This document shows positions 2,728 to 60,344 of a stretch of 64,000 nucleotides of DNA, in pieces. Every line of letters starts with the position of its first letter. The first letter of the stretch is position 1. The translations under genes were made by a program, and so were the position numbers. Under the pieces are notes generated by a model. It worked only from the letters and a program-made list of their open reading frames with translations. It was not told where the DNA came from and did no database searches. This DNA comes from Dysidea avara. Taxonomy: Eukaryota > Porifera > Demospongiae > Dictyoceratida > Dysideidae. The stretch covers positions 48,948,075-49,012,074 of the forward strand of contig NC_089274.1 of NCBI RefSeq assembly GCF_963678975.1. The letters run 5' to 3'.

Positions 2728-2884
2728 TTCATTTCTTTTTGTATTTGTATACCCCAAAGCCAGCCTATGGTTGGGACTTTTTTAACCTATCTTTTTTTCT
2801 TTACCACAGGAAGAAGAAAAGATGAAGCAGATTTAAATATTTCTGATTTTATCAGTAAATGTACAAATTATAATATAATACATA

Positions 2885-3211: not shown

Positions 3212-3369
3212 TTTCATTTCTTTTTGTATTTGTATACCATAGGCCGGCTTTGGGACTTTTTTAACCTGTCTTTTTTTTCTTTACCACAGGAAGAAGAAAA
3301 GATGAAGCAGATGTACTTTAAATAACTGATTTTATCAGTAAATGTACAAATTATATATATAATACATAT

Positions 3370-10135: not shown

Positions 10136-11850
10136 GACCAATAATTGTTTAATCTAAATTTAAAAGAGTTAATTGTGGGTGTTGAGATTACAAAACTAGG
10201 TAAATCATTCCACTGATCAATTATTTGATGCATGGCTGAAAAAGTTCTGTCTTATTGAGTTCTGGTTCTTTGTTTGTAAAGTTTTAGATGGTGTCTTCTA
10301 TTACTGGTGGTGGTGTACAAGATAAAATGACTCTTAAGATCGACATAATAGTGATTATTTAATATCTTGTATATAGACTTCTATTAAATCACCTCTTGGT
10401 CTATGACAATATAGAGAGTACAGCCCAAGAGGTTTCAGTTGATTTTGATATGACATACTAGATAGACCATGTACCAGTTTGGTGACACGACACAGAACAT
10501 TTTCCAGTAATATGATATCCTTAATCACGTACAGAGACCAAACTTGAACACAAAATTCTAACTGAGGGCGAATATAAGTACGGTATAAAATCTTGAAAGA
10601 ACTACAAGACAAAAACTTGAAAGAGCATTTTATTTTGCCAAGAGTTTGCATGGCTTTAGCAGCTATTTTGACAATGAAAAGAGGGTTTCAAATCTGATGA
10701 AATCCACACACCCAAATCCTTTTCCTTTTCAGTATAAGGAACCATAACATGCTTGCCACTTTTAAATTAATGTTGACAATAAAATAGTCATTTTGCTGAA
10801 GTTATGTGTAAGCTGATACACATTGCCTTACATTTATCAATACTCAAAAATAGTAATGAATGTAGAGACCATTCCATGGCAATATCAAGATCCTTCTGTA
10901 GTTTAACAACATCTTCATAATATTTGATTACTCCGTAAAGCTTGGTATCATCTGCAAACTGCTCAATAGGTGAATCAATGTTGAGCAAAATATCATTCAC
11001 ATATAACAAAAAAGCAAGGGTCCTAAAACAGGTCCTTGAGGTATTCCACTCTTAACTGTGATCCATCTGGCCATTACATTGTTATATACAACTCTCTGTT
11101 TTCTGTTTACAAGAAAACTTCTTAACCATGTCAAAATTTTCCCAGTAATTTCATATGACTTTAATTTCATTAACAAACGCATGTGTGGGACTGAGTCAAA
11201 TGCCGTACAATAATCCAAACATAAATTGTCAACTTTGCAACCTTCAGCTATGACAAGAATCCAATCATTGTATGACTTAGTAAGGTTCAAGATTTACCAT
11301 GACAAAAGCTGTGTTGAGTTTCAGATATAATATGTTGTAAAGACAGAAAATGGAAAAGCTTGTCATATTTATAAACTCAAATGATTTGATAATGTGAGAG
11401 ATCAAGCTCACAGGTCTATAATTATTAGAAATGTGTTTGGAGCCTTTTTCAGGAATAACATGAGCATGTTTTCCATTCTGAAGGGATTTCTCCAATATCC
11501 AATGAGTAAGAAAACAGCTGGTGTAATGGTTTTGTGAGAGAAATAGCACAAGATTTCAAAACTTTAGGGTGAATGTCATTAGGTCCTGGAGCTTTACGTA
11601 CATCTAGGTGAATTAGTTTGTCGTATACTTCATCTTCAGTGATCTCAATGTTGGACAAGTTTTCAAAAACCACCAGAGTGTGGTCAGGTATAGTAGTAAT
11701 GTCTTCTTCAGTAAAAGTAGATTCAAAAAATTCATTTAAAACATCCACTGTCTCCTGATCATTACTGCAAAGTGATCCATCGAGTTTATGTACAGGTCCC
11801 ACTATTGCTTTCACTTTTTGTTTAGAGTTTAGATAATTTTTTAATTTTAT

Positions 11851-12140
11851 TAAATGCTATCCCACTAGGGACCTGTGAGAAGGCTAAAGCCTATGAATAC
11901 ATGGAGTCATAAACGTGTAACTGAAATGTTAAAGAATGCAGAAAAAAATCCCAGACCCAGTGGTGACTTGATCCCCAGCAACATGCAGTCTAGGCATGTG
12001 CCAGAGGAGCCACAGCAGTCGGGACCTGAGATCCTATCTGCATTCAACCTCTACTTAATCATTGACTTCTCGTCATCAAGGGGGTTTTATTAAATGCTAT
12101 CCCACTAGGGACCTGTGAGAAGGCTATGAAGCCTGTGAAT
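11851..12140. repeat. Direct repeats 240 bp apart inside the LINE
   Basis: A ~50-nt block (taaatgctatcccactaggg and onward) occurs at 11851 and again at 12091. The intervening sequence has no similarity to LINE coding sequence. It may be an insertion that duplicated its target, or a diverged tandem duplication. Confidence 0.6.
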
Positions 12141-12999
12141 ACAGGATGTCTGAAACATGTAATGATAAAGAGGTTTTGGTCGTGCGTGGAAATTAACAAT
12201 AAGCGATTCTTCATAGTTCATCTGAGCCTTTCTAACACAGTACCTTACAAAATTATATTGAGTGGCATATTTTGAATAGTCTGTTGGAGATTTTGTACTT
12301 TTATATGTACTGTACAAAGTGTGCTTCATTTGAATAACCTTATCAAGAAAGTTATTCCATCATGGTGGCTTGGTATTATGTCTATTTTGAGAACATAATG
12401 GAATGAACTGAATAGTTACATCAAGTATCTTGTCCTTTAGAAGAGTCCCCTAGATTATGATGACTAAAACAGGCTCCCAATCAAAATTTGAGAGATAATT
12501 ATTCATGGAAATATAATTCCCTTTATAGTAGTTGTAGAAAGGGCATTTGTAATTGGGAGAAACTTGATCACTATAACATATAAACTTCCAAAGTAAAATA
12601 TCATGGTCACTCAGGCCCAAAGGAAATAAGTGCTTTACATTAAACACCATATTTGGTTCAGATGAAAATATCAAATCTAGTAACGAAGATGCCTGGCCAA
12701 GCCGATGATGAGTAGGAAAAGGTGTGTTGACATAAATAGGCATCATTAACTGCACTGAAAAATTGAGCATTTAAGGAAGTTTCTGAACCAGAATAGCTAA
12801 AATTAGTCCAGTCAATGTTTGGAAAGCTAAAATCACCCATAAGTAAAACATGAGAAAACTTGTGACAGTCAGAAATACATCTAATTAATTGAAACAACTT
12901 ATTATTGTTCAGATATGAACAGTTTGGTGATCTGTACACAACACCAACTAACAGTTTATCACCACCATTTAGAGATACTGAGCACTAAATACATAGATT

Positions 13000-13090
13000 C
13001 CTCAAACTCTATTTCAGACATTTCAAACTCTATTTCAGACATCTCAAACTCTATTTCAGACATCTCAAACTCTATTTCAGACATCATCTC
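13000..13090. repeat. 21-bp tandem repeat, four copies, in the LINE endonuclease
   Basis: The unit is close to catctcaaactctatttcaga. On the minus strand each unit keeps the endonuclease frame and encodes the heptad MSEIEFE, so the array is an in-frame peptide expansion. Confidence 0.85.
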
Positions 13091-13304
13091 AAACACAGTA
13101 GATTGAAGATCTTTGTGAACATATAATAAAGCACCACCACCATGATTGATTTTATGGACACAATGATTAATATTATATCCAATGATGTAAACGTTCTGAG
13201 TCTAAAATCTCAGTATTACACCAAGACTCAGCTGTATCCACAATCAAAGGTTTGTTTTGTTAAATGTAAACTACGTAAATGCTCTGCAAATTTGTTCATA
13301 TTGT

Positions 13305-14371
13305 TCATAATACTTTGAGCATTTGCAAATAAGTATGGAAATGTACGAAAATTTGTGTGTGTAGGTGATTTTGTGCAAAGGGAGGAACCTGGTTCTCCCT
13401 CCACATAATTCTTCCATTTTTTATCTTGTACACATGCCCACTCTGATTCATGTCAGCTAACTTTAAGCATAAAACTTTATCTCTTTCTCTTTCTTTTGGT
13501 GTCAGGTCTGGACATGTAAAGACCTTATGAAATTGCTCAGGTGAACTAGTAGCACGTAGCTTAGTGCAGTTACAAAGGATGGTTACTTTCTCGTCAATTG
13601 AGTTAACAGTTATCTTCAAAAGATGTGGTTTAGTAGACTTTTTCCCCAGCCTCATTGCATTTGTAATGCTAGCTGTAACACCAATGGCTTTGAAGACGTT
13701 TGTAGCCTGATCAATGTCATATTGTTTTCTGGATTGTGCATCGTCCAAGGTAGATTCTGGTACATTATGAAATGTATGATTCAAACATCTTTTGTCCTCT
13801 TGTTCATCTGTGAGCTAGGGAATCAGAAATAATCTCAGATATCCATGATGGAGCCATGTCAGCCCTGGCATCTGGTTTGGTTGCTGTTTCCATATTATCA
13901 TCTATTTGAGACACCACTATATCATTCTGTGACTGCAGTAAGTTTGTTATTGTTGCTTGCAGTGCACTTTGTAGCTCGTTTATGATAGTAGTTATTGTGT
14001 TTGTTACTGCTGGTAATACATTTCCTGGATCATTAGTGTTGCTTTTATTAATAACTTCGAAAACTTCTTTTTCACATGGCTGGTAAAACCAATGGAGGCT
14101 CTCAACTACACCAATTATACTCATGGAACTCCACAGCATTGAAGACAATACCATAAGCTACAGCATTCACACTGCAGTAATCCACTGGCTGTATTCTAGC
14201 TGACATTGGCTCCAGTTGAAGACTTCCTCCACTTGAGATGATTCCATGCACATTCTGAGAAGCTTGAGAGTTGGAAATTTTCTCTTTAGTAACCATTATA
14301 TGAGGGGCAGGCATTTTATAAGGTTTTTTAGAGCCCTTCTTCTTGTATTTTGGCATTGTACTTAAATACAC
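13305..14371 (-). pseudogene. LINE (CR1/L2-like) ORF1, degraded
   Basis: Three overlapping or adjacent frames (14371-14102, 14154-13804, 13784-13305) together form an ORF1-like product. It has a basic N-terminus beginning MPKYKKKGSKKPYK, a coiled-coil-like central part rich in I/L/N/Q, and a C-terminal nucleic-acid-chaperone-like region with RLGKKSTKPHLLKI and DLTPKERERDK followed by IKNGRIMWRE. The last region matches the conserved pattern of CR1/L2-clade ORF1 proteins. At least two frameshifts separate the parts. The product of an intact copy would bind the element's RNA. Confidence 0.75.
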
Positions 14372-14998: not shown

Positions 14999-15567
14999 AA
15001 ATAAGCTGCTAGTATTTTTTTGCATTAAAAGAAATATAGTTAAATCTTATGGAATACACTCATTATACTATCAAGCATCTGATTCAGTCATTTATTGGTT
15101 GTGTGATTTGTATTGTTGGTGTATAGGAGGATCTTTTACTGCACTTGTAGATTAACAACAACAACAATTACTACCATCCTTCATCATTGCGGCAAAATCT
15201 TACCTAAAGATAGAAATGCAACTTTCTGATGAGTGTATGTATCAGCACTATGGAGCCCCTCCCACAATATTATAATGCAGAATTAACAATTCCACTATAC
15301 TTCCTTATCATATAACATCATTGTAGAGTATGAGACTTTCTTACTATGACGTCATTGTTCACATGTGTATGTGACTAGCTAACTATCACTTCACAGTAAA
15401 CACAGGTAGTATGTATGCAAGTCAGTTTATTTTAAGTGTACATATGTTCCAACTATGTATACCCGTATTAGTACCAATAAAACACAGAAGTGTTTGATTA
15501 ATATAATATGGTTGCATGTACCATGTTTACTACTTACAACTTTATGAAGTGTTGTTTATCTCTATAG

Positions 15568-17189
15568 TGTGTCACACTGGAGACTGTGACTGCACTGGAG
15601 CCACTAGCAATGTGTTTCCTACTAACGTGACTTACTGCTGTAGTGGAGGGCTAAATGGAGTATCTTATAGAGCATCTGATGGCACCTGTTCATCATGTCC
15701 TGGAGGTATAGCTACATGCCAATGATTAACACATTAATGGTTATACCAAACAAAGTTTGCAGATTGTTATTCAACCAATAATTGTAGTTGATCAGTTAAC
15801 ATGTTCCAAACTAAATAAGAAGCCAAAACTTTAAGATGTGGCAAGTTTTTCCTCAAAACACAGCAAATTTTCTGTGATGTACCAAATTTTACCCTTGTGT
15901 AAGAAGCATTGTTCCTACACGTGTAGGGCAACATTAAGAAATTTTGTAGGAAATATTCCCACACTGTTGAATTTTGTAAGAAAGATTCCTACACATGACA
16001 TATTGTGTAGGAATAATTCCTACATTTGTAAGAACAATTCCTACACTTGTGGGAATTATTCCTACACTGCAAGATGTCTTACACTTTGTGCCATGTGTAG
16101 GAATCTTTCTTACAAAATTCAACAGAGTGGGTACAAAATTCTGCAAAAATTCTCAATAAAGCTCTACACATGTAGGAATCATGCTTCCTACACAAGTGTA
16201 AAATTCCTTCTAGCACTTTACCTCAAAATTATGATTTCTTATTTAATTTGGTTGTAGCTGATGGAACAAGTGTTAGTGAAAGAAGGCGTTGTTCTACTTT
16301 GGGAGGAACTTCATTTGGTGTAAATGGTCAATGTTTTGAGTGTACAGGAGGTAAGCATAGATATCACCTGAAGACATCAAATTACTATTGGCATGTTTAC
16401 TTACAGGAGTATATTGTGGACAAGATCCTCATTTTGCTATGCCATTATCAGATGGACAACTACTGTGTTACAGTGTGCAAGGATTAGCATACTTTGCGTT
16501 CAACCTAATCTCTGACCCCACCATCAACATTAATGCCTATTTTATTCCTCCTGAGAAGAAAGAGAATTTTAAGGAGTATGCCACCTTTTTAGGAGACATC
16601 GGTATTATGATTCAACCGAACAATTGTGAGGGTAAATGTAAAACTGAGGACATCACCAAGATCACCATCTCAGCCAGTGACAGAAGTGTTCTCCTTGATG
16701 GTAGTAGGACAGTACTCAGTGATCGTCCAGTTCATGTTATGGTGGATAACACAACTGCCACAATTCAACTGGGAGAGAAATTGAAGAAGGGAGAACACCC
16801 TAATATGATTGTATCAGTGAAGAAGCCAACACTGTCATTTAAGGTCAATTTTGTCAATGAACATCTTGACCTGGTTGTGATGGATGATAATGGTATCAGT
16901 GATGACTGTCATGGAATAATGGGTAAGTTCCATACCCCATTCCATTCCATAATACAATGGAGTATTATACAGGTCAGTTCCTTCGTAGAGAACCAGAGAT
17001 TGAGAATGGAGTTTTGAGGCTCAGATAGAAACTGAAGAGAAGGTAGCCTGGGATTTCCTGCATACTGAAAAGATGTGTCTACATGCTAAACCATTGTATG
17101 GCTATCAAGCAGAAGGGATCATAGAAGGGAAGTATACTGACTACATCGTGGAGAGTATCTTCTCTCAGTACAGCAAGTTTAAGCTATAA
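15568..17189 (+). pseudogene. 3' part of copy A of the cysteine-module / ITIH-C-like gene, decayed
   Basis: Exons inferred from copy B: 15568-15705 (module, 138 nt), 16258-16350 (truncated module, 93 nt against 135 in copy B), 16407-16922 (516 nt, ITIH-C-like, same length as copy B), 16973 onward (last exon). The exon at 16258 lacks the first half of its module and has arginine where copy B has the first cysteine of the CC pair. In the last exon 10 bp (aatggaaggc in copy B) are missing, giving a frameshift and stop TAG at 17026-17028; the old stop is at 17187-17189. A 9-bp in-frame loss lies near the end. Otherwise the copies are very similar and the 3' flanks stay alignable to about 17470. 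If transcribed it would lack about the last 60 residues. The two module exons at 1782-2283 may be its 5' part. Confidence 0.8.
15957..16131. repeat. Hairpin element in the intron of copy A
   Basis: Arms of about 40 nt (from cccacactgttgaattttg at 15957; inverted partner ending 16131) differ at one position. The interior and left flank are full of gtaggaat/attcctac half-palindromes. Copy B has no counterpart and instead has a 54-bp intron, so this insertion is specific to copy A and lies beside the truncated exon. Confidence 0.8.
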
Positions 17190-20370: not shown

Positions 20371-23230
20371 AATGTGATTTGATGTAAGAGATCCTTAAAA
20401 CTGTCTACATTTTTACAAATTATAATATCTTCAGGTAGAGTGTTCCACAATCGAATCATACTGGGGAAGAAGCTGTACTCATAAGCGTCCACAGTTGAGC
20501 CTATCTCAATGAATCGAATTTCAAATCTCTGCTCCGGGTATATCTTGATCTATGTTACATAACTAGGTAGTGTGATGTCAACATGATTGTAAATAGTTTT
20601 ATGTAACATCTGTAACCTTAGGAGTTTAAAGTGAGCTTCTATCGTATTCCAGTTAAGATGTAACAGCATATTGGATACACTACTAGTTTGGAAATAGTTG
20701 TTCATTACGAAACGTCTTTGTATAGACTCCAGTTTATTTATAGAGCGCCTGCCGTGAGGAGCCCAAGCTGCAGCAGCATATTCTAATACAGGCTTAACAT
20801 AAGTAAAATACAAATCTTCTTTAATTTTACGTGACAGTTTTTAAAGTTTCTTCTTACAAATCCTAACATTGAGTTTGCTTTTTTGCAAACATTATCAATG
20901 TGTTGGTTAAAGCACAGTTTAGAATCAATTGACACTCCCAGATATTTAGCACACTCAACAACAGTAAGTTTCTTTCCATGTAAAGTATAGTTAGCATGAA
21001 CAGGGAGAGTTACTGAAACAACCATACATTTATCGACAGTAAAAGACATCTTCCACTTTTCCTCCCATAGTTCAAGTAGTTGTAGGTCATCTTGTAAGGC
21101 TCTGGCGTCTTCCAAAGTATCAATCCTCCTATATAGTACACAGTCATCAGTGTATAAACGACAAGTAGATGTTAAATCTTTCACAATATCATTTATATAT
21201 ATCAGAAATAATAAAGGCCCCAATACGGAACCTTGTGGGACGCCACTTAAGACATTACAAGGGGTGGAGGTACACCCCCCCCACACACAACACTCTGTGT
21301 TCGTCAATTCAGAAAAGATGAGATCCAGTTTAGTACGTCACCTCTTATGCCATAATGATTCAACTTTAACAATAAATGACGATGGGGGACTTTATCAAAA
21401 ACCTTACTAAAATCTAGCAAGATTAAATCTGTTTGGCTCCTTCCATTTAAATTGTATGAGAGATCATGAATTGTTTGTAGTAACTGTAGCTCAGCAGAAC
21501 AGCATTGTCGAAATCCAAATTGCATGTCTGATAAGATATTATTTGACTCCATGTGTGACATGATGTTACCATAAATTATGTGTTCCATAACCTTACTACA
21601 CACACTAGTAAGCGACACTGGCCGGTAGTTTGATGGGTCTTTTCTGTTGCCTTTTAAAAATAATGGACATATCAATGCTTTCTTCCAATCTGATGGCACT
21701 GAACTTTGGCTTAGTGAAGCAGAAAAAAGTAGCTTAAGACAAGGAGATACCTCAATTGCTAGAGTTTTCAGTAACTTGGTGAGGATTCGGTCAGGACCTG
21801 AGGACTTGGTGGTATCAAGATCGCTGAGTACCTTGGCAATATATCAAAGTTTATAGACGGGATATCTTGATATGGGCTATCTTCCATGTATGGCAGTTCA
21901 GAGCTGTCATCCCTTGTAAACACTGAAGAAAACTGTTCATTTAATATCTCAGATTTTGTCTGGTTATCAGTATAATTATTTCCATCCTTATGCAGTGTTC
22001 CTAGGCTGCAGTAACCTTTTCGCAATGATTTTACATGTCGAAACAGTCTTTTCTTCTTGCCATTTTGATATGGGTCATATAGGGTATTGAACATGTATTT
22101 CCTAAAGGCTCTTCGGAATTCCTTTTGCATAGTCTTTTTTAGTTTCTTATATTGTGTCCAATCAACCGGTGATTGTGTAAATCTAGCACGATTGTAACTA
22201 GCTTGTTTCCGTCTCCTCAACTGCTTGATATCTCTATTATCCAAAGTTGACGATTGTTGTTGTTTTTCAGTTTAGATGGTACAAATTTGTCTAGTAGAAA
22301 AAGAAGTTTATCTCTTAAACACGTCCATAAAATTTCCACACTTGTTTCATCACAAAATTGATCGCAGAATTCTCTAGTAAAATTACACAAAGTATTTCTT
22401 CAACTCAGACAAATTAGCACTGTCCCATAAGTAGATTATGTAGCTCTCAGATGGATTATAAAATGCCTCAGGCTCCAGTGTTACTAACACAATCTCATGA
22501 TCACTGATACCGGGAGCAGAGTAACATTCCTGCACCAGGGTGGGTCTGTTTGTAAAAATAGATCTAAAATATTTTCATTGCGAGTAGGAAAGTTTACTAT
22601 TTGTGTGAATCCACAGTCATGCATCATGTGAATTGCCCGTTGATTAATCAGAAAAGAATACCTATAACTTATTATTAATTCATTTGACCAGTCTATATCG
22701 GGTAGGTTGAAGTCTCCAGCACAATAGATAGTAGCATTTGGATATTTTCTAGCAGTGTCAGTAATAAGACTACATAAATCATTAAAGTACTCCAAGTCTG
22801 TACTACGTAGGTGATCTATATATGCACATTATGATGATTTGTTTGTTATCAGGTAGATAAACTAATACTATACAGATTTCCGGGATAGTGTGGTTTTGCA
22901 ATAACTGCGATTCTAAATTTGATTTCACACCAATTAAAACACCTCCATATGTATCAGCACGGTCATTCCGAAATACAGTATACAAAGAAGGTAAAATCTC
23001 TCACTGTTCAATATTGTTTCATTTAACCAGGTTTCGCATCCTAAGATAATGTCAGGGTCGTGATGATTAATATAGATTCTTCTTTTTTGCTTAGCACACT
23101 TTGAATATTAATTAGCATTAAATTTAATGTTTGGTGGCGACCAGCACCAAAAGATCTAGTTGCAGCCTTATTTAACATAAGAGGAACATCAGGAACAATT
23201 TGAGGCTGATGCAAGAGTAGCATTATTTGA
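20371..23230 (-). pseudogene. LINE (CR1-like) ORF2: endonuclease and reverse transcriptase, degraded
   Basis: On minus, the endonuclease starts near 23150 (LMLINIQSVLSK), with YAG/CAGDFNLPDIDW near 22720 and FPTRNENILDLFLQ near 22590. A linker rich in basic residues lies at 22244-21768. The RT palm follows: DPSNYRPVSLTS (about 21620), QFGFRQ, LLDFSKVFDKVPH, SGVPQGSVLGPLLFLIYIND (about 21220) and a modified catalytic box in which FADD reads YTDD (about 21140). The C-terminus is LEYAAAAWAP (about 20775) and beyond. At least seven frame breaks. It has the same general layout as the LINE at 10136-14371 but belongs to a different family. Confidence 0.85.
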
Positions 23231-24340
23231 GACAGGCTCTTTACTTACTATGCGAGAGTATCTGACAACAATATTACCATTTCTAATCATCAAATTTCTT
23301 TCCCCTTTGGCTCTTCTGGAATGCAACTCATGAACCAATGCCTTGTGTTTGACGCACTCAGATTGAGTCATATCATGTGAAAATGAACACCCTCTTGTAT
23401 TGATCATTAAATCTGAGGCGGGGAGCATGAGAGAGAATAGCATGTTTGTCACTTTCTGAGTGCAGTCTGATAAGCAGTGGCCTATGCTTTCCTTCAAGTC
23501 TCCTACCAAGACAAAGGACTTTATCCACTTCTACACTGAGGTCAAAAACTGAAGAACAAAGAGAAATGAACGATTCTTTATCAGCTGATAAGTCAGCACC
23601 TTCAGGATAGTTATACATTAGTAAATTATTCTTGCGATGATTTCTGTCAGAGATCTCATCTATGACACTCAATGCAGCTGAAGTAGACTGGGTAGCAGGT
23701 GCAGAGCTTTGAGCAATAGAAGAAGCTGTAGACTTTATCTCTTGTTGAAGACTTTCATTCATAGAACATAAAGCATTAACTTTCATAGACAAATCCGATA
23801 GTTCTTTTTTAATGACATTGTGCTCTGACAAGAGTGGTTCAGTTGTGTTGGTTTCAGAACTAGGTGGGAAAAGGGCTTTGTGGATAGAGCCAAACATGAG
23901 CTGCTTTGAATGCATCTCACACTTATTAAACTTGCAATAATACACAACATTGTCAACAGTAGATGTTAATTGAGTAAGCAGCTTATATTTAAACCTTCAC
24001 AAGATTCTTGCAGCCACGAGTAACACAAATCACACTGTACAGCCTCACTTTTCTTTGTACATTTCTTATTGCAGTGGCGGCAAATATCAACGTTCTTACT
24101 TAAATCGTCTAGGGAGTCGTCTGGTCTCTTTCACTTAGAGGGGTTCTTTTCCAGCAATGCCATCTCTTCAGGGTCTATTTTCCAAATGTTGTCAACTGAG
24201 GGTGACCCAGTTGCGAATATACACGAACGAGAAAAACCTTACTAGTTGAAAGAGAACAAACCTTTACTGGTACCGTTATCCACGCACTTTTCACCACGGT
24301 ACCACAGCTTATTTAAGTTGAAGATGATGAGAGAGAAGTA
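23189..24340 (-). pseudogene. LINE (CR1-like) ORF1 with PHD-like finger, degraded
   Basis: Minus-strand frames 23945-23373 and 23509-23189 give a coiled-coil-like segment and a chaperone-like C-terminus (RKNNLLMYNYPEG, LCLGRRLEGKHRPLLIRL, then RNLMIRNGNIVVR). Upstream, at about 24088-23985, the minus strand encodes CRHC, then CDLC, a following tryptophan and a cysteine (DICRHCNKKC ... CDLCYSW ... SCEGL). This spacing is that of a PHD-type zinc finger, as known from CR1-clade ORF1 proteins. Stops separate the finger from the rest. Confidence 0.7.
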
Positions 24341-24385
24341 AGTCATACAACTTTGGCGCATCCTTTTTTTTTTTTTTTTTTTTAC

Positions 24386-24535
24386 TAGAGAAGTTCGATG
24401 GCAGCAAGAATTTTGAAGACTGGGTGAGTCATTTCAAGTGTGTAACAACAATAAACTACTAGAATGATGCTGAGAAATTGCTTTGGTTACAAACTCACGT
24501 GGCTTACCAGCGCTTAATGCACCTATCAATGTATG
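24386..24535 (+). pseudogene. Possible LTR-retrotransposon gag remnant
   Basis: Plus-strand reading gives KFDGSKNFEDWVSHFKC followed, after a stop, by DAEKLLWLQTH. The spacing resembles the start of Gag-like proteins of Gypsy-type elements (a W-x2-HF ... K-x4-WL pattern). The match is short and the frame is broken, so this is tentative. A run of T residues (24366-24383) lies just before it. Confidence 0.35.
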
Positions 24536-24654
24536 GACCTTATCCGCAATGACATCATAATTGACAAAATGGCCGTGTTTAGTGTGGACACCTTGTACCA
24601 AATCACTAAAATGAGCTTTGTTTTCTGATTTCATGACATGGAACTATTTGATAA

Positions 24655-25975
24655 TAAAGGTAAGAGGCTAGTTCGTACGGAGTTATTTTAGAAAATAACA
24701 TTCTTAACCATCAGCAACATGGTTTTGTGTGCAACAAGTCATGTTTAACTAATTTGTTGGAAACCTTTGAAGACTGGACAAGTGCGGTGGACCAGGGTTA
24801 TGGGGTTGATGTGGTATACCTGGATTACAGTAAGGCATTTGACATCGTAGATTGATTTCTAAACTTGAAGCGTACGGTGTGCGTGGAAACTTGTCCCTGT
24901 GGTTATCCAATTTTCTCACAAATCGTTTTCAGAGAGTAGTGGTTAATGGGTCTCAGTCAGATTGGGTTAATTTTCAGAGTGGAGTACCTCAAGGTTCAGT
25001 CTTGGGTCCCTTGTTATTTATACTGTATGTCAACGATGTGCCTGACCTCATTGAGAGTAATTTGAAGATGTTTGCAGACGACACCAAGATATACTCGGTC
25101 ATTAAATCTTTTCATGACAGCGTTAAACTACAACATGATATCAACAAGTTAATGCAATGGTCAAGTGTTTGGTTGCTTAGATTTAACGCAGCCAAATGCA
25201 AAGTAATGCAGATTGGTAACTCTCTTCCTGCATCATACACCATGTACGATGGCACTACAAGTACAAATGTATCTACTGACCTAGAACTAGTGAACGAGGA
25301 GAAGGACCTTGGAGTGTGGTGCACAAGTGATCTCAAGCCATCTCTACACTGCCAAAAAGCTGCAGTCAAGGCTACACAGGTTCTTGGGCTTATTAGGAGA
25401 TCTTTTAGAATTGACTCTATTGATATGCTTATATTTTTGTATAAGATGTATGTTCGACCACGTTTGGAATATTGCGTGCAATCTTGGAGTCCGTACTTGG
25501 CCAGAGACATCGACACCCTTGAAAAGGTTCAGAGACGTGCAACTAAACACCTTCGCGGATTAGCCCACTTGACTTATGAAAGCCGTCTTGAAATTTTGGA
25601 TCTCTATTCTCTGTATTGCAGACGTCAAAGGGGTGATATGATTGAAACATATAAGATACTTAAACGACATTATTACTTGGACCCATCTACATTTTTTACT
25701 TTAAATACTGCTACCACCAGGGGCCACCCTCTTAAGCTTTTTAAAGAAAGATCAAGATAACTTGTTAGGCAGAACTTTTTTACAAATAGAATAGTCAATC
25801 TATGGAACTCCTTGCCTGACTTTATCATTTCAGCACCAACAATTGCAACCTTCAAGCTGCGCTTGGATAATTTTTGGAAGCAATCTAGATATGGGCACCT
25901 TCAAAGGCCTGCGGCCTAGCCTGGCAAGTTAACTTTCCTGGGAATCTACAAGCCCATTAAATAATAATAATAAAT
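24655..25975 (+). mobile_element. 5'-truncated LINE (CR1/L2-like), RT C-terminal two thirds with (TAA)n tail
   Basis: It starts abruptly in the RT palm (NNILNHQQHGF, about 24695), then YLDYSKAFDIVD and one frameshift near 24854. From 24852 to 25760 a 302-codon frame is open, with SGVPQGSVLGPLLFILYVND, the catalytic FADDTKIY, RLEYCVQSWSP and RRQRGDMIETYKIL. After a stop at 25758 the frame continues with WNSLPDFIISAPT to about 25890, then a short 3' UTR and (TAA)n at 25960-25980. This is the best-preserved LINE piece in the window. The 5' truncation is typical of target-primed insertion. Confidence 0.9.
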
Positions 25976-34469: not shown

Positions 34470-37400
34470 ATGGAACGATTTATGATTGTTTTGATCAGTT
34501 GGTTAGTGCTTGCAGCACTCAAAGGTCAGGAGTCAACATAATAGCTACGTAGCTAGTTGTGCATGAACTCCAGAGTGCCATTACCGAAAATTGTTTATGT
34601 AGAAACGACTAGTGCTCAACAACAACAGTGTTTCCAGTCAACCTCAGATTGCAGCGGTACAGCCAGCAGCACTGGAATGTCGATGAGTGATTGTTGTGCC
34701 TCAGGTGGAATGTCTCACGACAATGGATCTGGATCATGTATGCTATGCCCCGCAGGTATGCTACTTTTGAGTAATTAAAAAATGTCCTCAAACAGATAAG
34801 TCCTCTTCTACGTGCATGGGTAAAGAGCAACATCAGTAGCACAACCAAAAGTACCAAGTCATCAATCAACCCCTAGTACAACACCAAAAGCTGTTATGAT
34901 TAGCAGATTAGGCAATGTTACTGCTAAAAATGCATGCTGTCTGGCCTTTCTTGTTATCACAGGATCGTGATCACTGGTATTAAACACACTGTATGCAGGA
35001 TATGCAATGGTTAGCTACAGTCAGGTGAATTTCATTATCATACATCAAGTTTCCACAAGTTTTGCAATTCACATTACCTACAGTTACGTATGAGATTCAC
35101 TGTTAAAACTGATGACCTATAAGTGCTAATTTTGACTGCTTCAGTCAAAAAAGCACCTCCTAGCCTACTAAGTGCTACCATAGCACTTAAATTTTAACAG
35201 TGTTGAGCATCGTTATAACTTAGATAACCATTTTCCTTTACATAAAAGAAAGGATCTGGTAAGTAGAGATCCCAGTTTATACTCATTTATTTATTTATCT
35301 TATATATTAAGACTTCACAGCACAAGTGCTGAAGGTCTGTAGGACTCCTGGTCCTACAACCTGTTTAAAGTTGTTACAGAAAGTATGTTTGAAAAGGTGG
35401 AGAAAGGAGAAAAAGCCCATGACTGGACCTGGGCAGCCTCGAACTTGCAGCCATCCGATTAACGCTTGAATGCTTTCAGCTAGGAGTCTGCCAGGCAGTC
35501 AAGATGTCTTCTTGTTAATTTCAAGTATAGAAGTTCTGCTCAGAGTATGTCATCATTGTTGTTCAGTATTATTGCTTATTTATTGCTTAGCAACAGAATT
35601 AGTGTATAAATTTTAGATTTACCTGCATGGGCTGCATACAGTGAAATGAGTACTGTATCATTCAATCTTTGTTGCATGGCTTGAAACTATAAGCTATGGT
35701 GGATCTAGATGGGCTTTTCAATAAGGCACAAACACATGTTTTAACTTTAGCTCTGGCAGTATAGTATTACCTAGTCAGAGCAGTTTACCCTATACATGAT
35801 CTATAGTCTGGGATAGTGGTGTGCGATATCAGGATTTTTATTTCGATACGATATTGGTGTAAATATCGAAATTTCGATTCGATTTTCGATAATTTTTAAT
35901 TTTGTGGGTGGTGCAATTGCGTGGGCGGCCGATATTTATAAATATGCTTGAAATACAATTTACACACTAAAACTATTGCATAAAACTAATAATAAGCCTA
36001 GAAAACTGGTAGACAAGTTTTTAAAGTGGCTAGATAGTACAGAACCAACCTTCATTTCTAGCGTGATTGCGCAATCACACACTAAATGCTGTAGATTTAT
36101 CGAAATATTCTTCGATAATTCGATACTTATCGCAAAATATTACCGTTTCGATAAATATCGAAATCTGCTAAAGCAGTATCGAAAATCGATACGATAAAGA
36201 TATTGACAAAATTATCACGAAATCGATATTATTTCGATATATCGTACATCACTAATTAATAGTCCACAAGTTCCACTAGTCAGCCGTACACTTTTTACAC
36301 TATAAAAAATGTCTGCAAGAAGTGAGTAGCTACGTATTATTAAGTGGGTGTGGCTCCATGTAAGTTTACATGCAGCTACAGAATTTCCAGAAGTTAGTTA
36401 TCTACATTTTCAAGTAGCAACACAGATCTGGTGATGCATGCATGTCCACAGAGCACAGCTGGTACAATTCCGATAAGTGGGCGTGGCTCTACATACCCCG
36501 CACAGACAGCAAAGCATATTCCTGAATGGTGGGTGTGGCTCCACGTAAGTTTCTTGAGTGTTTACAACTGTATTTCCATCAATACAATCGAGCTTGTTAA
36601 CTTATAGTCACACGTGAGCTCATCCGGGTCAGACCCAGATATTCAGTGAAGTGGACAAGACCCACTTGACCCGGACAAAATGTGACCCAAATACAGGCCT
36701 GTAGGGAAGGGGGGTTCTGAAGAACCCCCTCTTCAGTAAAAAGGTCCACAATTTCAGTAGAAAGGTCCACAGTTTTAGTAGAAAGGTCCAAAATTTTATC
36801 ATTTTTAGTGACTGAAAGTCTGAAATGTCACCAAACTTAGCCTTTTTGGTATGTATTTTCAAAAAAATTTCCTGGGGAGGGCCATAACCTCAGATACTTC
36901 TTTAGCACACTGTGATGCAAACCACACAAAAGGTCCACCTTTTTGTCTAAAGAACCTACCCAGGTAAAAGTCTGGCTACGGCCCTGAAATGACCTGAATA
37001 ATCTGGATGACCTGGCCCACTTACAATGCTGATAGGAATTATTTTGTATATATGCGTTGACTAGATTGTCTATCACTGTACAGATCCAATGTGTTACACT
37101 GAAGCATGTAACTGTACTGGAAATACTAGCAACACGTCTCCTACTGACATGAATCACTGTTGCAGTGGTGGTCTTAATGGAGTGTCCTTTAGTGATGCTA
37201 ATGGCATCTGTTCGCCATGTCCTGGAGGTATATCATCAGCACATTCACCAACAGTAATACTAACTACATTATTGCATGTAGATTGTCATTCCACAACTGC
37301 TGACTGCACGGGAACAATTATGGCTAATGGAATGGGTGTTAGTGAAAGAAGGTGTTGTTCTACTTTGGGAGGAACTTCATTTGATGTAAATGGTCAATGT

Positions 37401-38276
37401 TTTGAATGTACAGGAGGTAAGCATAGATATCACCTGAAGACATCAAATTACTATTGGCATGTTCACTTACAGGAGTATACTGTGGACAAGATCCTCATTT
37501 TGCTGTGCCATTATCAGATGGACAGCTACTGTGTTACAGTGTGCAAGGATTAGCATACTTTGCATTCAACCTAATTTCTGACCCCACCATCAACATTAAT
37601 GCCTACTTTATTCCTCCTGAGAAGAAGGAGGATTTTAAGGAGTATGCCACCTTCTTAGGAGACATCGGTATTATGATTCAACCGAACAATTGTGAGGGTA
37701 AATGTAAAACTGAGGACATCACCAAGATCACCATCTCAGCCAGTGACAGAAGTGTCCTCCTTGATGGTAGTAGGACAGTACTCAGTGATCGTCCAGTTCA
37801 TGTTATGGTGGATAACACAACTGCCACAATTCAACTGGGAGAGAAATTGAAGAAGGGAGAACACCCTAATATGATTGTATCAGTGAAGAAACCAACACTG
37901 TCATTTAAGGTCAATTTTGTCAATGAACATCTTGACCTGGCTGTGATGGATGATAATGGTATCAGTGATGGCTGTCATGGAATAATGGGTAAGTTCCATA
38001 CTCCATTCCATTCCATAATACAATGGAGTATACTATACAGGTCAGTTCCTTCGTAGAGAACCAGAGATTGAGAATGGAGTTTTGAGGCTCAATGGAAGGC
38101 AGATAGAAACTGAAGAGAAGGCAGCCTGGGATTTTCTGCGTACTGAAAAGATGTGTCTACATGCTAAACCATTGTATGGCTATCAAGCAGAAGGGATCAT
38201 AGAAGGGAAGTATACTGACTACATCGTGGAGAGTATCTTCTCTCCACACTTCCAGTACAGCAAGTTTAAGCTGTAA
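34470..38276 (+). CDS. Secreted protein: cysteine-rich modules plus ITIH C-terminal-like domain (copy B)
   Basis: Exons 34470-34524, 34603-34755, 37084-37227, 37282-37416, 37473-37988, 38041-38276; all introns GT-AG and phase 1; joined CDS 1239 nt, 412 residues. Exon 1 is a signal peptide starting MERFMIVLISW. Exons 2-4 each encode one module of pattern C-x6-C-x13..15-CC-x13..15-C-x2-C (exon 3 has an extra cysteine). Exons 5-6 resemble the C-terminal domain of inter-alpha-trypsin inhibitor heavy chains: GQDPHFAVPL, then LLCYSVQG, TININAYFI, GCHGIMG joined across the last intron to QFL, and EGKYTDYI near the end. No von Willebrand A domain, normally found in ITIH proteins, is present. Likely extracellular; function and partners unknown. 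A decayed copy lies at 1782-17189. The 2.3-kb second intron holds a SINE and two MITE-like elements. Confidence 0.85.
35098..35202. repeat. Small MITE with inverted ends
   Basis: Ends cactgttaaaa and ttttaacagtg. The interior (gcttcagtcaaaaaagcac) is related to the ends of the segmental duplications at 28655-28770 and 32560-32680. Confidence 0.75.
35290..35525 (-). mobile_element. tRNA-derived SINE, family S1 (minus)
   Basis: Reverse complement carries the B-box-like gcaagttcgaggctgc, the same body as 14780-14998, and an (a/t)-rich tail at 35286-35300. Lies in intron 2 of copy B. Confidence 0.8.
35815..36253. mobile_element. hAT-like non-autonomous element rich in tatcgaaa blocks
   Basis: Ends agtggtgtgcgatat and (inverted) agtgatgtacgatat. 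The interior is full of ttcgataat/atatcgaaa repeats. I could not see a clear target duplication. No transposase. Confidence 0.65.
36733..36795. repeat. Three ~20-bp tandem repeats
   Basis: Unit close to agtagaaaggtccacaattt. The surrounding 36600-37010 looks like an older dispersed repeat (the phrase aaggtccac recurs at 36940) but has no defined ends. Confidence 0.6.
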
Positions 38277-40682: not shown

Positions 40683-40816
40683 ACAAAGCTAGCCATCAAA
40701 AATCAAACACAAACTGAAAAGCAGTAACAAAGCTAGCCATCAAAAATCAAACACAAACTGAAAAGCAGTAACAAAGCTAGCCATCAAAAATCAAACACAA
40801 ACTGAAAAGCAGTAAC
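40683..40816. repeat. 44-bp tandem repeat, three copies
   Basis: Perfect or near-perfect copies starting at 40683, 40727 and 40771, each containing gctagccatcaaaaatc and aaactgaaaagcag. Confidence 0.9.
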
Positions 40817-40819
40817 ACC

Positions 40820-49800: not shown

Positions 49801-52800
49801 GCTATGAGTGAGTGCACATGGTTACCATCATGTTTTTAATTGTTTATGTCTTCAGTGAACTCATTCAAATTGTTGTTGACTCCAAACATGGTATTGCTGG
49901 CTATTTGCTTCTTTTACACTGGTGAGCTATACACACTGGCTCTAATGGTGGTCAACATTGTCTGACCTTTTCTGCCAAACCAATACTTTTTTTTGTTTTC
50001 AAAGCCTCTATTCAGATTGGTTACACGGGGTTAAAACATTAGCTGCTGTTTTATTGCTTACGTCTCATTATTAGGGCTGGAACTTGAGTTGTGGAGTGGA
50101 GTGTTTGTGACTTGTGTTGGTAAGTAAGTCACACAGCTGTTCATGTAGTGTTGTTATCAACTTTCAGGAAGGACTGGTACACTTGGGGCCACTTATCTAG
50201 CTCTTGCTGGAATGTTTATTGGTATTGGAGAGATATTAGGTGGGTTAACACACCAGGGGGTGTCAGAGTAAAAAGTGAAAGTGGTAAGGCTCAGTCCAAA
50301 GATAGCTAGTTTAGGAGGGTCTGGGGGCATGCTTCCCCAGGAAATTTTTTTTCACATTTTGAAATGCTATTTTGGAGGCAATTTTGGGCTGCAACACTAC
50401 ATGTGTGCAATGTGCTAGCTCCCCTGACAAGTAAAAAGCGTTAATCGGATGGCTGCAAGTTCGAGGCTGCCTAGGTCCAGTCTTCATGTAACAACTTTAA
50501 ACAGGCTGTAGGACCAAAAATCACCTCCATAATGCTTAAACAATTAAGATATAAACTGTAAAGAACATTTGCAAAGTAGTTACAAAGAGAAACAAAGCCA
50601 AAACTAAATATATGGTAACTATTTTTAGAAGTGTCTAATACAAAGGAAGTAGACATGAAGCTGTTCTGGGTGAAATACAAGTTAGATAAGTTGTAGTTTC
50701 TATCAGTTGTTGGCTAAATATTGCATGTTCACTACGTTTAGTTTTGAGTTTAAAAGTTGTTTTTTTAATTACACTGAGCCATGAGGCACTGGCCTCACTG
50801 GTAACACCTACTCTGACACCCTTGCACACACGGTATCACAAGTTCCATCACTGGTCTATTTCAGGTGGAGGTCTGTTTGGAGTGTTTGGCTGGCTGACAT
50901 CTCGTTATGGCAGAGACCCAATTGTGATGCTTGGGATGGTCATCCATCTTGCCACATTCCTTGGCATGTATTATGTTTTCCCTGGGGAATGTCCCATACA
51001 CCGTGTGGACAAGGATTTGTCTGATGGTGCATTGATTGACCATAACCACACCCACCAGTATGTTTGTTTGTCTGTCTGTCCATCTGTGTATCTGCCATTC
51101 TATAAGGGAGAAAATTTGCTTGCCTAATGGTTGTTTATACAATTTGAAACAACGTCAAGTTGTGGTGTAACTAAAATTTTGTCAATAACTCCAGTACCCA
51201 TCAATACAAATTATATCAATTTAAATGTCCAAAGCTTGTGTTCATGGTAGTTAACTTTCACCTCTGCTTCACAGTTCATATCTATTCTCTCATCCTTCAG
51301 TTTATTTGTTATGGGATCTAGTGGTGTGTACTTTTCTTAAGGCTCCAAATTAAGCACAAACATTGATCTAGTTCCACACGGTAGTTTAGTACAAGCTTCA
51401 GTAGTGCCTTCTAGTGGAACCGGAATTTGTCACTATTTTCATTTGTTAAGTGTGGTAATGTCAAATTTGTAGTTTACTTTCTTTGTATATCCTTCATGAA
51501 ACCAAGTTTGGTAGAGTGCTTACCAAAGAAATATTGTATGACCTGGTTGTGTCATGTACTGAACTGTGAGAGGAGGGCAGAACCGTTTAGGTTCTACTTG
51601 AAAATATCACCACACGTTTTGTTTGGAACATCACATGGACCCCAAAAGTTGCAATACATAATTGGCAAGCGGTGGGGATCATTAGTTCTCTTGATTACGT
51701 TTCATGTGAGGATTAAGGTGAATGTGCTTTGTTTTATAAAAGTGTTTTTAGTTTTCTAGGCAAAAACTGATTAAACACTTTCACACATATTAGTAGTAAT
51801 TCTAGCACTAGACAAGTGTGTATATTCTTAACAATGATACCAAGCTTTGTTACTCACATTTTAGTCATCCATTTTGCATAATTCATTTTAACAGTGCTAA
51901 AACCGCTTCCACCCTCCCCTGCTGGATGGTTGTATGAACATAATACTAATTTTCAAAACTTTTTTAATATACAAAGAGCCATACATACTTTCCATTGAAA
52001 GTGACTCTATTGCAGCAAAAATGTGCCTAAAACTCAGTCACAAAAGTGCAGAATGGTTCTCCTATAGTGTGTATATGTCAGATGGTACATAGCATCATTG
52101 TGTGTCCTTCTGTAGACTCATTATAGTTCTAGTACTAGCTGTTATGATAGGATTTGGTGACAGCTGCTACAATACACAGGTGAATATTCCCTGTACTGTC
52201 GTTGACTGTTTAATATTGTTGTACTGATATGAGAATTTCCAACAGGTAATACACACGTACATAGTATTGCACACTGTTCTAATGCTCTAACATCAAATTG
52301 TAAAGATCAATTTGAAACTTTTGTACTGACAGTATTTCAAAATGTAAAAGACACATTCTCAAACATAGGCAATTCTAAAGAGGAGGGAGGCATGTCCCTC
52401 CTCCCATCGAAAATAAGTTTTAAGACTATTGGAGAAGAGTTGCAGTATAGATTGACTTAGTTTCAGCATTTTTTATGATTTTAGGGTAGCAACCACAGAC
52501 TTCCCAACATTTCTAATTTCCTACTGCAGCTGGCTATACTATAAATTTGTGCTGTGCACCCCCTTGGATGTCAGGCATAGAAATGCCACTATTTGCAAAC
52601 ATGTTTAAGTGGATGTATTTCCAAATGAATATGGAACCTATCTTAGCAGCCACCTGTTCAAAAAGGCCAACAATTTCCCAATTGAGGTACAGTAATCCAC
52701 CTCCACCACCTGCTTATTAAGGCCAAAATTTTGATTAACGGGTGACCAGTTTAGCATGTTCCTATACCTCATGTTACTAACAACTGATAGGTTATACCAC

Positions 52801-56689: not shown

Positions 56690-59600
56690 TTACACTTTAC
56701 GAACATATGAATAATCATAAGTGTTATTAGTCTCAAACTTTGGTCTGGTGTAGTCAATGGCATTAATCACATATCCTGAGCCGCTGGCATCATCAAATGC
56801 TGGGTTACACACAACCATGGATCCTTGGCCTATCTCCTCATAGTCTCCGTCTGGACCAGCTGAATACACATTACTTTCTCGTTTTGAGGGTATATATGAT
56901 GGGTTAGGATTGATGATGACATTAGCACCTTGATCCTGGTCACCTACTGTGTAAGCCACTGTGTTATCAGTGATGGCTAGTTGTCCTTTGGACTTCGTGT
57001 TTCGATAGAGTAATACAATGATAACAATTAGTAGGAGAGCAATGATAAACAACAAGAATAATCCTCCACCTACTGCACCTCCCACCAGACCACTGCCTGT
57101 AATGTCAAGGGTAAAATATTTGTGATACAATATGGTAAGTGTTGGAGGAACTTTCAATAGCTTTATAAAACATTGCATATAGTATAGCGGCACAACCAAA
57201 AATTTGTGCACTTTTTCATAAAGCCATGAAACTTTCCACATAAATAGTAGTCCTCAATACATGTATTTTCAGATATAGTGCCATTGGTAATTTGGCCTTT
57301 ACTGCCATTTTTGTTTTTAACTCCCTGAGGCAGTAATTAACATGTTAAAACATGGTACCAAACAAAAGATCTTGCTGATAGAAACAACTTGGTTTTTATT
57401 TGAAGTCAATAGGTGATTTCATTTTTTAAGTTATGAGTATTTTTATTAGCTGCAAAATTTGATAAATTTATGCATAATTATCTGCCCACAGGTAATTCAC
57501 ACCTCGAGGGCAGGTAAATTTATCAAAATTTTCAGCTAGTAAAAATGGTCATAACTTTGTACTGAAATCACCTATTGACTTCAAATAAAAACCAAGTTAT
57601 TTCTATCAACAAGATCTTTATTTTGGTACCATGTTTTAACAAGTTAATTACTGCCTCAGGGAGTTAAAGACAAAAATGGTCAATTTTCTGTACAAAAATG
57701 GCCATAAAGGTCACCAAGGGTCAACTCAGCAATGGCACTATATCTAAAAATACATGTATTGAGGAGTACTATTTATGTGGAGTGTTTCATGGTTTTATGA
57801 AAAAGTGCACAATATTGCCAATTTTGGGGGCTACGCCGCTATACTAATAGGCAACATCAAATGAAAAGGTTTATTTTTCATAAAGTATAGTTGAGATATG
57901 TGAACTATGCCACCAGCTGTACTGAAAGTTAGTTAAAGCATCACTGTGCACATATGCATGTATGGAAAATATAGCACAAAGGGGTCATGTTGAGAGGCTG
58001 ATACAGCATGAGGTGAAGCCAACTTGCTGTATTCAACTCAAGACACCCTCCGAGTGCTGTATTTTTTCAGCCTTTAAGTGTTATTATTGTACTTCCTGGT
58101 CATCTTGTTTGCAGAGAGTTCATCTCGCCTGAACTGCTTCAGTTTTCAGTTTGGTGATCAGACTATCAGTAAGTGTTCATAGTTATAATCTATTTCTAGT
58201 CATAGAACAAGCTGGTAGGATTAGTTTGGCTAGCTTTAGCAATCTACAATGTCACACATATAGGACGTGATCATTCATGCTGTCTGAGTGGGACTATTTC
58301 TGTAACATTCCTTGCATAACTGTACTGTATTTGCCCAATTATCCACATAATTGTACTGTATGACTCATACAGTACAGTTATGTAGCTAATTGGTACTGTA
58401 TGGAAATGCAGTATGTGTCAGCATTTTGATCCTCCTAGTGTCCTACAATATAGGCTTAAACTTTGAAAAACAGAGTATTATACTTTTGAACAATGTTCAA
58501 AATCAAGCCTATTTATTAAGCTCAAAATTATGCTTTTTAAAATTACGCCCTGTCTTATTAGGGTGAATCAGTACTCTTGACTGTTGCATTAGTGACTGCT
58601 CTATTAGAGTATGCAGATCTTGTTTCTGTAAGTAATCAGTCAATAAAACTACATGTTTTTATAATGCTTGATGTGCAAGCCTATCTGGTATACAGGGTAC
58701 CTGACTAAACATTCAGTAGAGCTGTGAAGCACAATACCAGAACTATTATTTGATAATAGTAGTGGACAAGTTTGGGCAGTATAGTGACCATATTGTAAAC
58801 ATGAAAAGGAAATTTCTCTAATATTGAATAGAGACCACATGTTTATATCTTTGACTTTCACAAGAGCTTGTGTACTGTATATGAAAGCATTGGCAGAGCC
58901 ACCCATGGAGGTATAGGGGAGAGGGGCAACTGGGGCATTCCCAGAGGGCCTCTTGAATACCTATTAAAAAGATTGATATACTCACCGTATTCTTGTGTAG
59001 CAAGCTATGTATGTAGTTATAAATAAGGAGATATAGTTGGTGAGGGGCAGCTATTGTCATTGTCAGCATGTAATGACCTTTTTTTTGGTCTATGACTTAC
59101 AGCTAGGCTGAAGTTGTGATTCAGAGTGGAACCCTCCTTGCCACTGGATCCCCACTTTAACTCTGTGGGCCCCCTTAATTTCTCTTGGCAGCTCTAAGCG
59201 TGGAATCTATTATACATAATTTTTGTGCTCTAGCTATTTACATGTACGTACTTGTCATTTTTAATAAGTGGACCATTAAATTAACTAACAAAAAATCACG
59301 AGATCTTATAAAATAATAAATACAAAACTAAGAAAATATGCATATGAATTTTTTAATGCCAACATTGCTTGTGCCAACAATTTCTAATTAAAAAGCACTT
59401 GTGCTGTTCATGCACAATATAACATGTATCTCCTGGCTGTATATAGTTACATATTATACAGCTTACCTGGTGAATTAGAAGATGATGACTCACCACTAAC
59501 TATAAAATATGTGCAGTCAAGACAGTCATTTATTGCATGCTGTATACCTGTTTGACACACAACATCACTACCACTCCAGCTCCCATCACTCTGACAGGTC

Positions 59601-59736
59601 CTAGTGTCACTACCAGTTAGTTCATAACCAGTGTTACATGTGAAACTACAAGTGTCTTCATAAGAAAATAGTGAATCATTTGTCAGTGAACATAATATCC
59701 TCCCATTTAATGGATTAAATAAATCTGGACAATTCA
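56690..59736 (-). CDS. Sushi-domain single-pass membrane protein with tyrosine-rich tail (3' part)
   Basis: Two exons on minus: 59736-59467 (270 nt, phase 1 at both ends) and 57096-56690 (stop TAA at 56690-56692). The first encodes a six-cysteine, selectin-type sushi/CCP domain (NCPDLFNPLNG ... GYELTGSDTRTC ... GSWSGSDVVC) and a Ser-rich juxtamembrane piece. The second starts with a glycine-rich stretch and one long hydrophobic helix (GGLFLLFIIALLLIVIIVLL), then RNTK and a cytoplasmic tail of about 95 residues. The tail has NPSY, DYEEI, NPAF, GYVI, DYTR and NTYDYSYV, which suggests tyrosine phosphorylation and adaptor or SH2 binding; that is inference. Upstream exons, including the signal peptide and any further domains, were not found before the window's end. 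Convergent with the transporter, 514 bp between stops. Confidence 0.78.
57182..57843. mobile_element. Long foldback element, ~660 bp
   Basis: The ends tatagcggc and gccgctata are inverted, and the two halves pair over roughly 320 nt each (for example gtgcactttttcataaa with its complement at about 57800, and aataggtgatttca with its complement). The centre lies near 57480-57520. No coding capacity. Inside the intron of the sushi membrane protein. Confidence 0.85.
57850..59460. other. Intron of the sushi membrane protein; no further exon recognised
   Basis: AT-rich. One TGACTGCTCTATTAGAGTA motif at 58593. The minus frames 58649-58906 and 58818-59069 have no cysteine or domain pattern. Confidence 0.4.
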
Positions 59737-60344
59737 CTGTGAGACAGATACATTTTTATAATGAGTGTGTAGTGTGTATGTCCACATGGTAGCTAAGCCT
59801 GGAAATACTTCCCATGTGTTGGTGTTAGGTTGTGTCCCCTATCTGTGACAGATAAGGTCTGGGCAGGGGTCCCCTCAGGTGGAATTTGCAATCCCCACAT
59901 AATGTGCATATATAGGTGTGAAACTACTTTACCGAGTCATACTGACATAGGGATATCCCTGCAGGATGCCATCTTTGTCAATGGCATACCTTGTTGTATG
60001 CTGGCACTTGTATGCTAGTGGAAGAGTTTGAATATTGTGTGTTATGCCCATCGGTTTGTTTGTACTGTGGAGAGAAAGTAGATCTCCTAGTTACTGAACT
60101 CAACAACTGGTGTGAAAGTCTGCATCTCCCCATGCATAATGAGTATGCCAGACTGAAGCTGGAATTTCCTGGATAGCCTCTTTTATACTGACCTCCAAGA
60201 TACATTGTTTTAAAAAATATTAAAACTTTGTTATGAATGCACACGCAATCTGTGACCAGATTTTGCAAAACTGATCCAAATCGCACATCAGGCAAAATGA
60301 AACTGACTCCACCAGTGGATAGCTATACTATCATCATACAGTGA

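Follow-up and report, generated by a model that had tools for sequence, protein, structure and literature searches.

A putatively secreted cysteine-module protein with a candidate self-cleaving ITI_HC_C tail, and its expanded family, in the sponge Dysidea avara

In a 64,000-nucleotide stretch of the genome of the sponge Dysidea avara (RefSeq assembly GCF_963678975.1, contig NC_089274.1, positions 48,948,075 to 49,012,074 of the forward strand; hereafter the window), a gene of six exons at 34470-38276 on the plus strand encodes a product of 412 amino acids in which three small cysteine modules precede a domain of the kind that ends inter-alpha-trypsin inhibitor heavy chains (ITIH; Pfam family ITI_HC_C). 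With moderate confidence, we read the product as a secreted two-part protein whose tail would cut the chain spontaneously at Asp169-Pro170 and whose front consists of faster-changing modules. The gene is one of 98 fetched non-canonical tail loci whose front ends, where they can be named, are varied, and the interest therefore lies in a promiscuous tail family rather than in one odd gene. The tail and the principle are known, while the partner module is unnamed and the expansion unusual.

In mechanistic terms, the front of the secreted protein would be formed by three small disulfide modules and its tail by the ITI_HC_C domain, which would cut the chain between Asp169 and Pro170 during secretion, like the VWD domains of FCGBP, a cut that can be compared with the processing of inter-alpha-inhibitor heavy chains during their loading onto chondroitin sulfate. 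The two halves of the window gene's product may stay joined across the cut via a Cys166-Cys330 disulfide, and in most relatives release of the front part, or its esterification to an acceptor, would follow. The role could be that of an adhesive or recognition protein of the extracellular matrix or surface mucus. The observations themselves establish the gene structure at the DNA level, the family, the varied front ends, the conservation of the cleavage residues and, for the window gene, unequal rates of change in front and tail; cleavage, disulfide pairing, the fate of the front part, the acceptor and the function are matters that we infer.

Identity of the tail domain

A Pfam search of the product returned ITI_HC_C (PF06668) as its sole family, at residues 202-344 with 40.2 bits against a curated cut-off of 27 (expectation value, E, 3.7e-10). 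The likeness to the ITIH C-terminus that had been proposed from the sequence-only reading is thereby upheld, and the landmarks on which it rested (GQDPHF, ININ, GCHGIM/GQFL and EGKYTDYI) are all present in the tail as claimed. With E allowed up to 10, Pfam gave the product no VIT, vWA or VWD domain and left the modules likewise unmatched; the vWA scan covered the product only, the introns and flanks not being scanned, and none of the 27 VIT places found in the genome lies inside the window. The claimed lack of vWA, and with it of VIT, was thus confirmed for the product, and because both domains were searched there and are missing, the product is not an ITIH heavy chain.

Searches for more distant kin returned little. 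No credible relatives were obtained from viral contigs with either the single protein or a 15-row alignment, from genome contigs with the single protein, or from plasmids, where three Streptomyces matches stood at E 0.6. Matches to flocculin and urease structures in PDB were rejected as weak (E 0.019 or worse, the best straddling the border between module and tail), and a profile of 15 tails reached only E 1.3 at best against PDB.

A conserved Asp-Pro motif as candidate cleavage site

The best clue to mechanism, absent from the sequence-only reading, is the DPHF motif at the start of the tail (Asp169-Pro170-His171-Phe172, 37490..37501, plus strand) as a proposed site of Asp-Pro self-cleavage. 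Heavy chains are cut at the Asp-Pro of this motif, a step triggered by low pH, and we take DPHF to be their processing site. Among the 99 tail loci collected from the genome (see below), DPHF opens the tail in 93, on both deep branches of the tail tree and down to about 30% identity; column by column, D is kept in 94 of the 99, P in 98, H in 97 and F in 97, while the QG of the tail has Gly in 99/99 and Gln in 91/99. The residue before the Asp is Gly at 59 of the 93 DPHF loci, and the window gene has QDPH. Six loci lack the motif: L022 (HPHF and a stop), L065 (damaged start), L089 (GEPHF), L112 (GNPHF just past a stop), L116 (DTPHY; very divergent, on a very long branch) and L118 (GDPLF).

In the D10 VWD domain of FCGBP, cleavage at Asp-Pro is abolished when the Asp is changed to Ala or Asn, or the His to Asn, and depends in part on a Gln close enough to hydrogen-bond with the Asp (PMC10880436). 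The same source also places the GDPH of ITIH3, 5 and 6 in a domain of predicted VWD topology (PMC10880436). When the tail was aligned globally, profile to profile, with the VWD domains of this genome, GDPHF paired with GDPHY, QG with QG and HGLMG with CGLCG, at a score of 13.8 vs 0.07-6.9 in 20 column shuffles. The fold of the tail is probably VWD-like.

Several observations weigh against this reading of the tail. For the pair, hhalign gave a probability of about 2% (1.8%), the VWD profile being shallow at 15 sequences, and a local alignment of 5 columns; the Pfam VWD profile is without a match in the product, as stated above; and an AlphaFold model built on the two window copies reached a predicted local distance difference test score (pLDDT) of 41.7 and was not used. 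Compared with VWD, the Asp and the Gln of the tail are 4 residues farther apart, which makes the equation of the two Gln residues a judgement of the alignment, and two of the six loci without DPHF, L089 and L118, are not clearly broken. Furthermore, several other tail columns are conserved as strongly as DPHF, and the motif could for that reason be kept for folding. The tail would then be a structural or dimerising cap that undergoes no cleavage, in line with the GDPH of MUC2, which stayed uncleaved in one recombinant system (PMC10880436). Set against such a cap is the retention, together and in most of the 99 diverged loci, of the residues that FCGBP cleavage needs, and we regard it as an unlikely, if serious, alternative to a self-cleaving tail.

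A genome-wide family with varied front ends

The searched assembly comprises 550.8 Mb in 108 contigs. At E up to 0.01 the tail search found at least 151 places, counted per exon, compared with 15 for the Pfam ITI_HC_C profile alone. The 99 loci retained are those with most of exon 5 (one of them joined from two pieces) among the matches listed, and form a lower bound; partial exon-5 pieces and separate exon-6 pieces were omitted, and one of four canonical loci on contig C7 was taken. That locus (L062, C7 14.89 Mb) has the make-up of a canonical heavy chain, with matches to VIT (31.4 bits), vWA and ITI_HC_C (30.4 bits) and with DPHF.

Upstream DNA amounted to 0.7 kb at 56 loci and to about 1.5-1.7 kb at most others, and Pfam was applied upstream of the tail at 23 of the 99 loci, picked by eye and coding score. 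Within these 23, VWA is found with the tail alone at six loci (L050, L068, L069, L095, L099, L117), EGF at four (L051, L057, L075, L076) and Calx-beta, above its cut-off, at three (L042, L043, L054), with Calx-beta at L059 and L079 below the cut-off only; NIDO (L052), IgGFc-binding (L058) and C8 (L082) occur at single loci, and the segments of L049, L061, L067 and L084 had no Pfam match. At L078, L082 and L104, VWD exons on the same strand precede the tail within about 2.5 kb, presumably as parts of the same genes. A phase-1 acceptor is found in 84 of the 99 tail exons, where one third would be expected. A quick tree was built from the 99 tails with the canonical heavy chain as its root, and 40 of its 95 inner branches are open. 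Loci with cysteine modules occupy each of its two deep branches, and the 45 of 99 loci that could be labelled require no fewer than 8 switches of front end.

Three side observations belong to this genomic setting. Both VWD (at least 150 places) and IgGFc-binding (132 places) are greatly expanded in the assembly. VIT is expanded at C11 20.1-21.8 Mb and C9 18.0-18.2 Mb, with no tail within 2 Mb among the matches listed. At L107, L108 and L114 (C12 1.37-1.41 Mb), the tail is preceded by an Arg-rich stretch and, after it, a hydrophobic segment, which may mark a form anchored in the membrane as a type II protein.

The variety of front ends also bears on whether the family could be the sponge allorecognition (aggregation factor) system or part of it, with a tail that is, or resembles, the Wreath domain. 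Sponge aggregation factors carry Calx-beta, VWD and Wreath domains, and the idea draws support from the Calx-beta and VWD found ahead of the tail at some other loci and from the way front ends vary on the tail tree; it is opposed by the window gene's own product, in which Pfam finds neither Calx-beta nor VWD, and we consider it rather improbable. Nothing relevant on Wreath was found among the papers listed, and the word is absent from the main text of PMC8380372 and PMC5450542.

The cysteine pair and the possible fate of the front part

In the window gene, Cys166 stands three residues before Asp169 and Cys330 just before HGIMG. In VWD proteins the halves stay joined across the cut by such cysteine pairing. 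Across the 99 loci, neither flanking cysteine is seen at 84, the downstream one only at 8, the upstream one only at 3 and both at 4; these four all belong to the type of the window gene and include the broken copy in the window. This co-occurrence is a weak hint of pairing, and it is offset by six sister loci in the C3 11.6-11.8 Mb cluster that have the downstream cysteine without the upstream one. At the 84 of 99 loci in which neither cysteine is seen, the front part could thus depart or become ester-linked.

This opens a further alternative, in which the tail would act exactly as in an ITIH heavy chain, the Asp-Pro cut serving to ester the module chain to a glycosaminoglycan through its new C-terminal Asp while the tail is discarded. 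The inter-alpha-inhibitor pro-domains, of 239 and 244 amino acids, leave upon ester linkage of the heavy chain to chondroitin sulfate (PMC7170535), and the tail after D169 has 243 amino acids and the same motif. The canonical VIT-vWA-ITI_HC_C heavy chain with DPHF in this genome and the 92 of 99 tails in which no cysteine is seen within 6 residues before the cut to hold the halves point the same way. However, VIT and vWA are absent from the window gene's product, whose halves could be held together by the cysteine located 3 residues ahead of the Asp, and no acceptor is known; an exact repetition of heavy-chain transfer appears distinctly unlikely, and we retain the reading of a self-cleaving tail whose halves may stay linked in the window gene.

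Gene structure and genomic copies

The 412-amino-acid product was rebuilt exactly from six plus-strand exons with AG/GT borders and a frame open throughout. Exon 1 (34470..34524) carries the start codon and a signal-like peptide MERFMIVLISWLVLAALK and ends in phase 1, the N-terminus of the product being an 18-residue hydrophobic stretch that is signal-like by inspection; a TATA-like GGTATAAAATAGG, read by eye, lies about 130 nt upstream. Exons 2 (34603..34755; 153 nt), 3 (37084..37227; 144 nt) and 4 (37282..37416; 135 nt) hold cysteine modules 1, 2 and 3, exon 5 (37473..37988; 516 nt, with 99 relatives aligned) opens with GVYCGQDPHF and covers the first two thirds of the ITI_HC_C-like domain, and exon 6 (38041..38276) supplies the end of that domain (GQFL..EGKYTDYI..) and the stop codon. 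The lengths of the four internal exons are all multiples of three and their borders phase 1-1, exactly as had been claimed for the body of the gene. For exon 2, alternative starts at 34576 and 34648 would both keep the frame, the latter at the cost of one cysteine.

A second copy with all six exons in the same order lies on the minus strand of genome contig C3 at 48,901,385-48,911,385 and is separated from the window gene by about 71 kb. Exon 1 differs between the copies by 1 nt, a synonymous change that leaves the peptide identical; exon 2 differs by 5 nt and is gapless except for a possible extra CCG at its end in the second copy; and intron 1 shows 3 differences and 20 gapped positions out of 78. 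Exons 3, 4, 5 and 6 differ by 9, 4, 6 and 4 nt without gaps (4/236 for exon 6), and as the short introns 3, 4 and 5 are also nearly identical (0, 2 and 0 differences), identity between copies cannot tell coding from non-coding DNA for exons 3-6. The second genomic copy thus supports exons 1 and 2 as predicted, the synonymous bias of the tail supports exons 3-6, and the gene is real as far as DNA alone can show.

A degenerate copy is found within the window at 15567..17186 on the plus strand, consisting of a whole module (15567-15704) followed by remnants of exons 4, 5 and 6, with 95% DNA identity and an ITI_HC_C match of 37.5 bits; its module 3 exon is interrupted by an inverted-repeat element (15885-16205), and its last exon is out of frame through the loss of 10 nt. 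Two more plus-strand exons with the module pattern, at 1784-1915 and about 2154-2282, are not tied to a gene and are possibly the 5' part of this degenerate copy. Directly after them, an inverted-repeat (fold-back) element with its direct repeats occupies 2400-3369. The broken neighbour at 15.5-17.2 kb invites the suspicion that the gene at 34470-38276 is itself a decaying duplicate without a product, which is very improbable given a frame open across six exons and the strong constraint on the tail between the complete copies described below.

The cysteine modules and their rates of change

Each of the three modules in the product spans about 45 residues and shows the cysteine spacing that had been described, module 2 with one extra cysteine. 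A loose form of the pattern, composed after the modules had been seen, gave 6 matches in the window, representing 5 distinct modules, all on the plus strand, whereas 50 versions of the window shuffled by a first-order Markov model averaged 0.06 matches and never exceeded 1; a chance origin, with 0.06 expected per window, was rejected. Seventeen modules run singly against Pfam yielded nothing credible (6 families listed, each for 1 of 17 modules, best E 0.0032), and, combined as a profile, they matched nothing credible in PDB (best E 0.12, ribosomal protein L37).

A module profile detected 42 cysteine modules upstream of the tail, spread over 29 of the 99 loci. As it was seeded and rebuilt from those loci, this count is not an independent test; the reverse strand, which yielded none, provides one. 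Of 40 modules, 32 have best splice sites that are phase 1 at either end, where one ninth would be expected by chance.

In modules 1-3, the codon changes that separate the two complete copies are non-synonymous in 10 cases and synonymous in 6, as against 1 and 9 in the tail (Fisher p 0.014); the ratio of non-synonymous to synonymous change per site (pN/pS) is 0.54 for the modules and 0.03 for the tail. In total, the contrast reaches p < 0.05 in 11 of 47 pairs, namely the window pair, L075/L091, L092/L093 and 8 of the 10 pairs of a cluster at C2 25.3 Mb. In that cluster, where the compared modules may not be orthologous, the tails have a synonymous divergence (pS) of 0.04-0.20 and the modules approach saturation in 8 of 10 pairs (pS 0.67-0.78), a state that fits exchange or conversion. 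Telling against a general contrast, the window comparison is based on 26 codon changes, module 1 by itself (2 to 3) is without it, and among the other close pairs it is present at p < 0.05 in 10 of 46 and absent in 36, the tests being uncorrected and non-independent. Taken together, the codon comparisons support a conserved tail with freer front modules for the window gene and for part of the family.

Other features of the window

A large tandem-repeat array extends over 3380-7190, with many overlapping self-matches and a unit of very roughly 60 nt by eye, and a 44-nt unit stands in three perfect tandem copies at 40683-40817. LINE-like (long interspersed nuclear element) fragments were recognised by eye at 8899-14157 and 20786-25757, with an RVT_1 match at 24843-25757, the sole segment run against Pfam. 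A UNC-93-like exon lies at 50690-51124 (23.0 bits vs a cut-off of 22.9). On the minus strand, a Sushi domain at 59450-59755 (E 7.3e-12) may form a membrane receptor gene together with 56693-57253, which has a hydrophobic stretch, a tyrosine-bearing tail and no Pfam match. Rfam and tRNA scans and a bacterial promoter scan gave nothing of use.

Significance and relation to known systems

Inter-alpha-inhibitor heavy chains represent a rare join of protein to polysaccharide by an ester, and here the domain that is processed in them occurs without the rest, at about a hundred loci and behind varied front ends. No description of cysteine modules joined to ITI_HC_C was found among the papers listed, which cover part of the literature, animal proteomes not being searched. 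If the tail does cut itself, the cutting step would be separable from the vWA/VIT part; the 99 natural variants, six of them without DPHF, would allow the requirements of cleavage to be tested; and the family would offer a concrete candidate, at the molecular level, for rapidly diversifying proteins of the matrix or of recognition in an animal genome that is also rich in VWD and IgGFc-binding domains. A broader and distinctly speculative extension, to which we give little weight, is that of a lineage-expanded delivery system, in which a self-cleaving tail with an activated aspartate would fix exchangeable, fast-changing front ends (cysteine modules, VWA, EGF, Calx-beta, NIDO, IgGFc-binding, VWD) covalently to matrix sugars or mucus for recognition of self and non-self or of microbes.

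With ITIH heavy chains, the product shares an ITI_HC_C domain above the Pfam cut-off, DPHF at the domain start and a tail of about 240 residues; unlike them, the window gene has neither VIT nor vWA, places cysteine modules ahead of the tail, and belongs to a family of many loci with varied front ends. The likeness to VWD domains with GDPH, such as those of FCGBP, MUC2 and MUC5AC, lies in the D-P-H-F/Y start, a QG placed slightly later and HGLMG in the position of CGLCG, and front ends of the IgGFc-binding, NIDO and VWD/C8 kinds precede the tail at single loci here; the tail differs in being unmatched by Pfam VWD, in its 4 more residues before QG and in having few cysteines. Sponge aggregation factors, finally, are unlike the window gene, which lacks both Calx-beta and VWD, but resemble the wider family in the Calx-beta or VWD that precedes the tail at some other loci and in the variety of its front ends.

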